Shown here: positions 1,692-9,736 of the stretch, piece by piece | How positions within the stretch are numbered: the first letter of the stretch is position 1 | Layout: each line of letters begins with the position of its first letter | Origin: a virus | IMG/VR virus record: IMGVR_UViG_3300004806_000114 | Coordinates: 1-20,233 of that record | DNA length: 20,233 nucleotides | Strand: one strand, 5' to 3' | Position numbers and translations under genes: made by a program | Notes under the pieces: model-generated | The model's input: only the letters and a program-made list of their open reading frames with translations | The model's database searches: none | Told to the model about the DNA's origin: nothing

Positions 1692-2749
1692 TATTGACCT
1701 ATTACTGTAGCTTTACCCCACATACTTGGGGTTTGTTGATTTTGCATAGGTGCTTGTTGCATTTGTGGTTGAACACCTAAATTTGTACCTTGTACGCCAG
1801 CAGCAATCGAAATGTCATTTTGTGCTTGTTGGCGCATACGAGCTTTTTGTGCAACCACATCAGAACCATCTCCAATATCTGGGAAATAAGTTTTTCTGTT
1901 TGCTTCAATTTCATGGGCATTAGTGCCAGCACCAGTTTTAAAGCGTAAATATGCTTCAGTCCATTGGTTTTGCGCTTGTTTAGCTTGTTGTGCAGCAGAT
2001 GGTGTTAAAAAGTTAAGCATTCCACCAGCCATTCCTGTAGTTGCTTGTGAAACTGGGCTATTAGGATTAAACCCTTTTGCGTAAACATTATTTAATTCAT
2101 TGTTTGCGCCAACCATTTGGCTGTGAAATACAGCAGCTTTACCTTGTGATTCTGTTAAATTTCCTTTTCCAAGAATAGGTTGTCCATTAATACTTAATGG
2201 AGTAGCTTTTCCAGTAAAAGGATTAATTAAAACAGCGCCTTGTGGAGTTTCAACAACTTGACCTTTTCCAAGTTCAGCGCCACGAAGTCCTAATTCTCTT
2301 TCTCTTAATTTTAATTCTGCTTTGTCTTTTTCAGAAAGTTGTTCAGGAGCTTTTGGAATATTTGCAGCAATTAATGAAGGCACAAATTCTTTTCCACCAT
2401 ATTGTGCTTTTGTTGCAAGACCTAAAGCACCTTTAGTGTCGCCTTTATTTAAGGCTTCCATAATGTCTTGTTGTTCTTGTAATTTTTTATCACGCAATGC
2501 CTGTGCCAATGCTAATTGTTTATTTTCAGCGTTATGGCTTAAATAAGCACCAGCAGCAGCATTAAACAAAGGTTGTAATTGTTGCGCCCAAGAAGGTGCT
2601 ACATAGCGACCAGAAATCACTTGTCCAGTAGGTTGCTGCGTACTATTTTGAGTAAGCAAATCTGCCATTTGCTGTTGGCGTGACAATGCCATAGCTTGTG
2701 GGTCAGTAGCTAATAGTGTTTGGTCAGTTAAAGAAGCTGGTTGTGCCAT
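1691..2749 (-). CDS. Putative internal virion / ejection protein (352 aa)
   Basis: No domain is recognised. The protein is rich in Gln and Ala. Residues about 75-160 are predicted helical and charged, with KLQEQQDIMEALNKGD followed by a Lys/Glu/Leu-rich stretch, so a coiled coil is likely. The C-terminus is Gln/Met/Pro-rich and looks disordered. It sits third in a run of four compositionally similar genes after the tail hub and GNAT-like gene. That is the slot of P22 gp7/gp20/gp16 and T7 gp14-gp16, so an ejection or internal head role is inferred from context only. An AGGA ribosome-binding site lies 7 bases before the ATG. The stop overlaps the next start as TAATG. Confidence 0.68.
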   Translation of the reverse strand: MAQPASLTDQTLLATDPQAMALSRQQQMADLLTQNSTQQPTGQVISGRYVAPSWAQQLQPLFNAAAGAYLSHNAENKQLALAQALRDKKLQEQQDIMEALNKGDTKGALGLATKAQYGGKEFVPSLIAANIPKAPEQLSEKDKAELKLRERELGLRGAELGKGQVVETPQGAVLINPFTGKATPLSINGQPILGKGNLTESQGKAAVFHSQMVGANNELNNVYAKGFNPNSPVSQATTGMAGGMLNFLTPSAAQQAKQAQNQWTEAYLRFKTGAGTNAHEIEANRKTYFPDIGDGSDVVAQKARMRQQAQNDISIAAGVQGTNLGVQPQMQQAPMQNQQTPSMWGKATVIGQ

Positions 2750-8333: not shown

Positions 8334-8368
8334 AAAAGAAAAGGGACTCCCCTTTTGAGGGAATCCCT
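8334..8368 (-). terminator. Intrinsic (rho-independent) terminator after the head genes
   Basis: Read on the minus strand, AGGGATTCCCT and GGGGAGTCCCT form an 11-bp stem (two G-U pairs) around a CAAAA loop, followed at once by TTTCTTTT. This is the standard form of a rho-independent terminator. It lies between the decoration-type gene and the tail genes. Since all genes on both sides run the same way and no promoter is visible just downstream, it probably reduces rather than stops transcription into the tail block. T7 uses a terminator after its capsid gene in the same manner. Confidence 0.85.
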
Positions 8369-8389: not shown

Positions 8390-8698
8390 TTATACGCTTG
8401 CAGCAGAGAACCAAGCGCTATCACCAGAAGCCAAAGCAACGCCAGGTGATGTGTATGCACCACCAGTAGCAGCTACTTGGAAAGTAGAAGCATTGATAGC
8501 GCAAACGGTTGTAGAAGCAGAAATAGCAGCACCAGCTTGTGCGAATACATAACGCAAGCCTGTGTTACCAAAAGTCTCAGCACCGAGTGGGCCAAATGCT
8601 GGGATTGTTTCAACAGTAGAACCGTTGGTCAAAACGAAATCGACATTGGTAACACCGTTAAGGTTTACGCCTGCGATTGGGAGAGTACTATAAGCCAT
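8390..8698 (-). CDS. Small virion protein next to capsid, possible head decoration (102 aa)
   Basis: The protein is small, nearly all beta and poor in charge: Gly, Ala, Thr, Ser and Val dominate. It has a segment GLRYVFAQAGAAISASTTV followed by alternating strands and turns (GGAYTSPGVALASGDSAWF). This pattern, a Y-V-F-x-x-A-G-A strand followed by turn-rich repeats, recurs in small proteins encoded beside phage capsid genes. Capsid decoration or stabilisation is therefore plausible but unproven. The ribosome-binding site AAAGGA is 8 bases before the ATG. The gene is bracketed by two hairpins, one after the capsid stop and one terminator after its own stop, so it may be expressed at a level close to the capsid protein. 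Confidence 0.68.
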   Translation of the reverse strand: MAYSTLPIAGVNLNGVTNVDFVLTNGSTVETIPAFGPLGAETFGNTGLRYVFAQAGAAISASTTVCAINASTFQVAATGGAYTSPGVALASGDSAWFSAASV

Positions 8699-8730
8699 GA
8701 TTTTTTCCTTTGTAAATTAAATAGACCTTT

Positions 8731-8756
8731 ATAAATAGGGGTTTCCCCCTATCTAT
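8731..8756 (-). promoter_or_regulatory. GAAA-tetraloop hairpin starting at the capsid stop codon
   Basis: On the minus strand the segment folds into an 11-bp stem with one G-U pair. The apical 7 bp, ATAGGGG with CCCCTAT, close a GAAA tetraloop of the very stable GNRA type. The stem's first base is the last A of the capsid TAA. No U-tract follows (the next bases are AAAGG), so it is not a standard terminator. It could protect the 3' end of capsid mRNA, act as an RNase site, or pause polymerase. Function is inferred; the structure is visible. Confidence 0.65.
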
Positions 8757-9736
8757 TAGTTGGTCAAAATGCCTTGTAGGAAGCGGTTAGAAGTTGTCAA
8801 GTTACCAGCCCAACCGTATAACTTCACGATTGCGTCTTGGTTAATTGCTTGACGCTCGCCACCGATAGGTACAAAGTTACGCTCTTTGTGTGGGCGTAGG
8901 AAAATGTAGTTGGTGTTCAAGAAGTACATTGTGTTAGAAGGCTGCTCATTACCATAACCGCCACCCAATACAACATCAGCAGATGTACCACCACCGTAGA
9001 ATTTCATAGAAGCGAAACCAGCAGAGCCAGACTCTTCAGAAGTAATACGCTGAATAGCTTGGAGTGACTGTACATACAAGCTGTAGAAATTAGTGTCAGC
9101 AACAATCAAGTCAGCCTTGTCTGTGCCACGAACTAATTGGAGAGCTGTAGAAGTCATCTTAGATTGGATGTTAGAAGCTGTGATGGTTGTACCAGTAGTA
9201 GCTGTATTCTGCCAGAAAGCCCAGTTAGCAGCGTTAATACCACCGTAAGTACCAGATGTAGGAGTTGCAGAAACTGCAGCAGCCAAACCATCCAAATTCT
9301 TACCGCCATTACCTGTACCGTCTAAGAACAAGTCACCAGAAATACGGTTTAACAAGCGTGCTTCAGAAACTTGCATACGACCATCTAACAAGTCGATGAT
9401 TGCTTCTTTAGAGCTGTTTTGCAACATTTCTAAGCCAGACATTGTAACTGCGTCAGCGTACTGAGCAATTTTGTACTGAGCAGCAGAAATTGGGCTATCT
9501 GGAGAAATATTCAATACTTCATAACCAGAGTAGCTGTTTGCATTGTTTGTATTTGGGTCGTTGTACATGATTTCTTCCAAAATCACATTACCACCTGAGA
9601 ATGGGCGTACATTGCCCTTCTTGTCCAAATGCATCAAAATTGCATTGTTTTGTGTTAAGTTGTCTGCCAATTCACCGCTACGACTTTGGATGGTAGTAGC
9701 GATAATATCGGTAATTGCGCTATTTGCGAATGCCAT
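8756..9736 (-). CDS. Major capsid protein (326 aa)
   Basis: This is the coat subunit of the head. The call rests on position directly after the scaffold gene and on sequence type. A helical N-terminus (NSAITDIIATTIQSRSGELAD) is followed by a basic/aromatic stretch with KKGNVRPFSGGNVI. Next come the EEIMYNDPN and YSGYEVLNISP segments and a later QAINQDAIVKLYGWAGNL strand region, all typical of HK97-fold coat proteins of environmental podoviruses. Residues 116-133 (LDGRMQVSEARLLNRISG) fit the long spine helix. Length is usual for a coat without a cleaved scaffold domain, which agrees with a separate scaffold gene. AAAGGA lies 6 bases before the ATG. A GNRA hairpin follows the stop at once. Confidence 0.85.
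   Translation of the reverse strand: MAFANSAITDIIATTIQSRSGELADNLTQNNAILMHLDKKGNVRPFSGGNVILEEIMYNDPNTNNANSYSGYEVLNISPDSPISAAQYKIAQYADAVTMSGLEMLQNSSKEAIIDLLDGRMQVSEARLLNRISGDLFLDGTGNGGKNLDGLAAAVSATPTSGTYGGINAANWAFWQNTATTGTTITASNIQSKMTSTALQLVRGTDKADLIVADTNFYSLYVQSLQAIQRITSEESGSAGFASMKFYGGGTSADVVLGGGYGNEQPSNTMYFLNTNYIFLRPHKERNFVPIGGERQAINQDAIVKLYGWAGNLTTSNRFLQGILTN

Follow-up and report, generated by a model that had tools for sequence, protein, structure and literature searches.

What is the role of an RNA hairpin that opens on the very last base of the stop codon of a phage capsid gene? This arrangement is found in IMG/VR virus record IMGVR_UViG_3300004806_000114, and the stretch analyzed here (the window) is its positions 1 to 20,233 (20,233 bp). 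The genes at this locus lie on the minus strand, and its features are as follows.

10826-9762, minus strand: open reading frame of an unassigned gene
8756-9736, minus strand: open reading frame of the major capsid gene (PHROG 9953, major head protein, E 7e-98)
8756-8758, minus strand: TAA stop codon of the capsid gene, which the outer helix encloses; an in-frame TAG comes next
8731-8756, minus strand: GNRA-capped hairpin of 11 pairs (fold)
8738-8749, minus strand: GC core GGGG-GAAA-CCCC, 6 nt past the capsid stop codon
8742-8745, minus strand: GAAA tetraloop (fold)
8731-8737, minus strand: UAUUUAU, a U-rich 3' arm adjoining the GC core; a weak U-tract
8762-8765, minus strand: 5' arm of the outer helix, GACC, within the last capsid codons (Leu-Thr-Asn; fold and covariation)
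8724-8727, minus strand: 3' arm of the outer helix, GGUC, intergenic (fold and covariation)
8706-8711, minus strand: Shine-Dalgarno-like AAAGGA of the decoration-type gene, outside both helices (read from the sequence)
8390-8698, minus strand: likely decoration-type virion structural gene, 102 aa (open reading frame, PHROG and predicted structure)
8342-8368, minus strand: strong intrinsic terminator downstream of the decoration gene, whose stop codon is ~22 nt away

An earlier sequence-only reading had placed a hairpin with a GAAA loop at 8731-8756, its stem opening on the final base of the TAA, and folding reproduced this exactly. From 8756 to 8731 the minus strand reads AUAGAUAGGGG-GAAA-CCCCUAUUUAU and forms 11 pairs, one of them G-U, the first of which joins A8756 (the last base of the TAA) to U8731. 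The 26-nt hairpin folds at -15.1 kcal/mol, and none of 200 dinucleotide shuffles was equally stable (z -3.7). Folding with more flank (8775-8720; -20.5 kcal/mol, z -4.2) added an outer helix that was absent from the earlier description, in which GACC at 8765-8762 pairs with GGUC at 8727-8724 and thereby encloses the capsid stop codon.

The identity of the 102-aa protein encoded downstream (8390-8698, minus strand) as a decoration protein is plausible, as judged from modeling and profile matches. Its AlphaFold model is all-beta (pLDDT 85.7), and PHROG 26298, "virion structural protein", matches 34 of 50 family members at E values up to 0.1 (best 7e-6, window member 0.04). The window protein has no Pfam match at E 0.1. 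A Foldseek search with the model returned nothing significant (best E 0.46); its weak matches include chains of HFTV1, Sf11, YSD1 and lambda virion structures and the phi29 head fibre, and also unrelated enzymes such as MoeA.

We collected relatives of the locus by five scans of a viral collection with the capsids of the window, L040, L034, L048 and L142 as queries, keeping the best 80 of ~450-600 relatives from each. The scans yielded 314 loci, many of which are repeated contigs; 311 had a readable junction (L019, L043 and L381 run off the contig end), and 113 of these were distinct. As a strict rule, we required a stem of four or more uninterrupted pairs, with three or more GC pairs among them, and a loop of 4. 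Under this rule, the hairpin is present in 74 of the 113 distinct capsid/decoration junctions among these best-80 relatives and absent from 39, the latter including L030, which has the same hairpin with one core mismatch. The loop is GNRA in 71 of the 74 (GAAA 68, GCAA 2, GUAA 1), with UUCG, GAAG and AAAA found once each, and the GC core starts 4-7 nt past the capsid stop codon, at 6 nt in 55 of 74. The more detailed counts below are based on the first 95 distinct junctions (59 with the hairpin by rule) or on parts of them, and leave out 18 that came later.

Presence of the hairpin requires 7 changes on the capsid tree (93 junctions; 58 with, 35 without), at least 5 of which fall on strongly supported branches, and the tree neighbors L011 and L012 differ in it. 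Replacing it with a tree of the downstream protein does not improve the fit: for 91 rows, each of the two trees requires 8 changes. The intergenic gap measures 50-61 nt with the hairpin versus 15-42 nt without it (91 distinct junctions, L030 counted as with), so the hairpin behaves like a ~30-nt unit. Two sets of neighbors with unlike junctions, L023/L024 and L027/L030, may reflect junction exchange by recombination.

An exact 22-mer was found in 42 stretches of the viral collection, and in all 42 the start codon of a frame of 50+ codons lies 53-58 nt from the start of the match. The frame ending just upstream matches capsid in 33 of them; the other 9 have too little upstream sequence for a 60-aa frame, yet carry the same kind of capsid-end DNA. 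A covariance model of the hairpin detected a single copy in the window and a single strong copy per locus in all 42; among 91 hairpin-less or distant loci, it gave one match (E 0.85). We rejected a mobile repeated hairpin because the 22-mer always lies in a capsid-end context, with one strong copy per locus.

Locus L121 contains a weak second match to the hairpin model (2383-2438, minus strand; 26.7 bits, E 0.14). IMG/VR record 3300027969_000189 (40,979 bp) has two capsid genes with a hairpin after each (L100 and L115; L321 and L328), perhaps two related phages joined in assembly.

The sequence-only reading had staked the hairpin on conservation of its pairing in related phages, with covarying stem pairs beneath a fixed GNRA loop, and this is what we found. 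In an alignment of the inner stem from 60 junctions (56 distinct, L030 included), 88.1% of cells pair versus 79.7% with shuffled partners, and 50 cells are changed on both sides versus 7.7. The covariation score is 0.298 versus 0.146 for shuffled partners, and is 0.05-0.10 when the partner is slid by 1-3 columns. For each of the three measures 0 of 500 shuffles, which ignore relatedness, were as high. The closing pair, which is G-C, C-G or A-U, shows 17 changes on the capsid tree, an equal number on each side, and the independent pairs that lie on strongly supported branches are all concordant (7 of 7, p 0.016). Across the tree's 57 rows, the second and third pairs from the loop are invariant. 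Changes are more frequent in the 5' arm than in the 3' arm at pairs 5, 7, 8 and 9 (15 v 4, 13 v 5, 13 v 10 and 8 v 3), and less frequent in the 5' base than in the 3' base at pairs 6 and 10 (3 v 18 and 6 v 11). Judged by comparative sequence analysis, the hairpin is a real, selected RNA element and not a product of chance.

The outer helix was assessed across the same family. Duplexes between the last 15 capsid nucleotides and the downstream tail have a mean energy of -5.74 kcal/mol over 59 junctions, whereas permuted tails give a mean of -4.40 kcal/mol (sd 0.17), and none of 5000 permutations was as low. Each of the ten capsid-end classes pairs more stably with its own tails than with those of other classes, in four cases by a margin of at most 0.33 kcal/mol; the tail of one single-member class is paired more stably by other capsid ends. 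In an in-register count, all four pairs are standard in 45 of 56 distinct rows. The third base of the Thr codon is Watson-Crick paired in 48 of 56 (A/T 28, T/A 12, C/G 8) and unpaired in 8 (A/A 6, A/C 2), compared to a shuffled mean of 23, and 0 of 5000 shuffles (relatedness ignored) reached 48. Sign tests for this base on independent pairs, in which L030 was unscored and the partner of L142 was misplaced by the script (by eye A/A, not A/T), gave 4/4 and a mean of 3.1/5 as expected with none against; the 0.05 level was not reached. In L125, a synonymous Leu change from CTG to CTA is accompanied by C to T in the partner (AACTG/CAGTT versus GACTG/CAGTC). Such compensation at synonymous sites is a warning that variation in the last capsid codons is constrained. 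The 3' arm has been lost in L138, L140, L148 and L150. A looser count (4 pairs, 2 of them GC) finds the helix in 60 of 74 junctions, with swapped tails reaching a mean of 66% and a maximum of 80%; this count says little by itself because the GAC/GTC core is common to the junctions.

We next considered the relation of the hairpin to intrinsic terminators. The sequence-only reading described it as having no U-tract, which holds for the sequence beyond the full stem; the 3' arm after the GC core, however, is UAUUUAU and occupies the place of a terminator's U-tract, and in relatives this flank reads, for example, UUAUUUUU, UUUUAUUA or UUUCUAUU. A terminator score of the d'Aubenton-Carafa form (stem energy per length plus a weighted U-tract) gave the capsid hairpin a positive value in 53 of 59 distinct junctions and a negative one in 6 (mean 12.9, range -7.7 to 29.6). 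Its reverse strand scores above 0 in 2 of 59 and the forward strand is higher in 58 of 59, a comparison in which loss of the GNRA loop lowers the reverse score; for the U-tract part alone, forward beats reverse in 54 of 59. Immediately after the core stands a T in 59 of 59 junctions, and T fills at least 4 of the next 8 positions, this one included, in 57 of 59. Among 45 cells in which one of stem pairs 5-8 is broken, the T on the 3' side is retained in 42 and the A on the 5' side in 1, these cells coming from related sequences. Together, the strand polarity, the U-rich arm and the retention of U at mismatches favor the view that selection acts both on pairing and on a weak U-tract.

The terminator downstream of the decoration gene provides a reference. 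It scores above 0 in 92 of 92 scorable junctions, with means of 45.1 in those with the capsid hairpin and 44.4 in those without, a wider stretch being scanned there, and it lies 17-41 nt from the stop codon of its gene in 88 of 92 (6-11 nt in the other four). Of the 1006 bins along the window's minus strand, just three have positive scores: the strong terminator (39.5), a piece of its own hairpin (0.6) and the capsid hairpin (12.3). None of 90 junctions has a positive score at sites that start ~75 to 30 nt upstream of the capsid start codon (3 of 93 were too short). A simpler scan that wants T after the whole stem flagged the strong terminator on the minus strand and not the capsid hairpin, and also flagged the opposite strand of the capsid hairpin (8735-8752, plus strand). 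The earlier claim that the hairpin differs from the nearby terminator is correct for its strength and its distance from the stop codon, but not for its kind.

We hypothesize that the hairpin is a weak intrinsic terminator (i.e., an attenuator) between the capsid and decoration-type genes, a reading to which we assign a probability of roughly 55%. The hairpin lies between these two genes, its pairing is conserved in both helices, its U-rich arm is polar with respect to strand, and it is weak relative to the second terminator; from these observations we infer termination itself, its efficiency, gating by ribosomes and any role of the outer helix. Once the GC core and U-rich arm have been copied, the GNRA-capped core would fold and a fraction of RNA polymerases would stop, which would supply extra capsid-only mRNA, while the remaining polymerases would transcribe the decoration gene as well and end at the strong terminator (8368-8342); the hairpin would in this way determine the output of the next gene. 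With the core starting only ~6 nt past the stop codon, a ribosome finishing the capsid would cover the stem base and allow polymerase to pass, making leakage dependent on capsid translation. The 4-7 nt spacing of the core, versus mostly 17-41 nt for its strong neighbor, suggests that in a host with coupled transcription and translation the hairpin would leak during capsid translation. On mRNAs that extend past the hairpin, the outer helix could then close over the stop codon. This helix would not be required for termination, and polymerase would be expected to stop before reaching its 3' arm, which speaks against a terminator as the whole explanation. The fuller proposal, that this is a natural translation-gated terminator that lets polymerase reach the decoration gene only during capsid translation, and whose outer helix, covarying with a synonymous codon position, forms a second state closing over the stop codon after the ribosome leaves, is rather unlikely.

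Several observations run contrary to a weak terminator. The U-tract is interrupted and is paired with the 5' arm, 6 of 59 junctions have negative scores, the simpler scan flagged the opposite strand instead, 39 of 113 distinct junctions are without the hairpin under the strict rule, and the excess of changes in the 3' base at pairs 6 and 10 is at odds with U being kept above all else. Published work on spacing speaks for ribosome gating: shortening the distance between the upstream stop codon and tR2 from 28 to 5 bp lowered the efficiency of this terminator from ~90% to less than 10% (PMC4824070). Short stop-to-terminator distances occur in B. subtilis and are explained by polymerase outrunning the ribosome (PMC7858274, PMC12207403). 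Among the roles that the sequence-only reading had listed (stabilizing or processing capsid mRNA, or slowing ribosomes or polymerase), the best match is with polymerase, which the hairpin would partly terminate and not just slow; nothing specific speaks for slowing of ribosomes.

A serious alternative, although we consider it somewhat unlikely, is that the element acts after transcription. The two-tier helix would block 3' exonucleases or be cut by RNase III, and, if cleavage in the AU-rich linker came first, capsid mRNA would then outlive decoration mRNA. GNRA and UUCG loops are known for unusual stability. Covariation of both helices is consistent with such a role, as are the existence of the outer helix only in RNA that continues past the hairpin and the A+T content of the linker (83%; 802 of 962 bases). 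However, this model leaves the strand polarity of the U-rich arm and the U retained at mismatches unexplained, the gap lengths given above leave no room for a long extra linker with the hairpin, and terminating ribosomes would be expected to open the helix.

A third possibility is translational insulation, in which the structure would prevent ribosomes that have finished the capsid from sliding on or starting anew at the decoration gene, or would otherwise tune translation of the latter. Enclosure of the stop codon by the outer helix would suit this role, and the fixed spacing places the core about where a stopped ribosome would meet it. We consider it quite improbable: the Shine-Dalgarno-like site and start codon in the window lie outside both helices, and an AGGA-type site precedes the start codon in junctions with and without the hairpin alike. 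The position of AAAGGA likewise led us to reject a hidden Shine-Dalgarno site for the window.

Stimulators of frameshifting have a spacing similar to that of the capsid hairpin, and when shifted frames were read from 4 codons before the capsid stop, the -1 frame was open to the decoration gene in 19 of 60 junctions (11 in the decoration frame). A readthrough or frameshift signal for capsid extension, as in T7 gene 10, is nevertheless largely refuted, and we rejected it as highly improbable, because the -1 frame is closed in 41 of 60 and the +1 frame in 60 of 60, readthrough is closed in 58 of 60, and a second in-frame stop directly follows the TAA in 45 of 60. Equally improbable is chance, or simple inheritance without function, which would accommodate the 39 of 113 distinct junctions lacking the hairpin under the strict rule and the mere ~7 gains or losses on the capsid tree, which make the hairpin dispensable, but not the changes matched on each side of the closing pair or a covariation score above both shuffled and slid partners.

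How does a weak terminator at this position compare with known systems? A search of all 4227 Rfam families gave no match at or above the gathering threshold in the window or in 20 hairpin loci. The sub-threshold scores (bits/gathering) were, in order, 21.6/55.5 for caiA, 18.0/48.5 for cow-rumen-4, 17.6/41.2 for DUF2815 and 15.5/48 for IMES-4, each far short of its gathering score; the IMES-4 match spans the 26-nt hairpin with GGAAAC. The caiA and DUF2815 models resemble the locus in having a hairpin and ending in a purine-rich site and AUG. At window 8690-8790 the sub-threshold candidate families caiA, DUF2815 and freshwater-2 share the layout of hairpin, linker, purine-rich site and AUG, and some of them may be similar intergenic hairpins. 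Among the open-licence PMC papers listed by our literature searches, neither titles nor abstract openings mention the capsid hairpin element.

Like intrinsic terminators in general, the capsid hairpin has a stable GC-rich stem, a stable tetraloop, a U-rich stretch right after the core, present on the coding strand only, and strand polarity. It is unlike them in its interrupted U-tract paired with the 5' arm, its weak score, its overlap with the stop codon and its covarying outer helix. In position, the closest parallels are hairpin terminators that directly follow major capsid genes and precede the next gene. The T7 record places Tphi (24210) between the end of gene 10B (24162) and the start of gene 11 (24228); its stem lies 9 nt from the 10B stop, and it scores 36.0 with the same script versus ~13 for the capsid hairpin. 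An apparent strong terminator stands directly behind the MCP gene of LUZ100 (PMC10134795). A terminator after a capsid gene is therefore a known arrangement, and the capsid hairpin shares with these its place between the major capsid gene and the next virion gene; the likeness is one of position, and we do not claim common descent. A search for a phage-encoded single-subunit polymerase of the T7 type found PF00940 in 0 of 13 related records, in a search whose control likewise gave no match in any of 14 genomes.

More distant capsid relatives comprised 23 loci (20 from genomes, 3 from phage records). In 11 of these the capsid gene is followed, at 9-45 nt from its stop codon, by a scored terminator, and all 11 come from records titled as proteobacterial bins, L208 and L209 being near-copies. 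These loci are L207-L211, L213-L215, L217, L218 and L220, some of them titled as rumen, reticulum or rectum samples.

The tR2 test constructs (Li et al. 2015) are alike in having a stem a few nucleotides from an upstream stop codon. They are engineered, whereas the spacing of the capsid hairpin is natural and conserved, and repression by the ribosome would be the shared behavior if our model holds. While terminators after capsid genes are already known, what is new here is the fixed place within a ribosome's footprint combined with a covarying helix over the stop codon. The element is compact and well supported, occurs in a large group of uncultivated phages, has been gained or lost between close relatives and comes with natural with/without pairs such as L011 and L012, making it a test case for how the ratio of capsid to the next virion protein is set and for transcription-translation coupling as a regulatory input.
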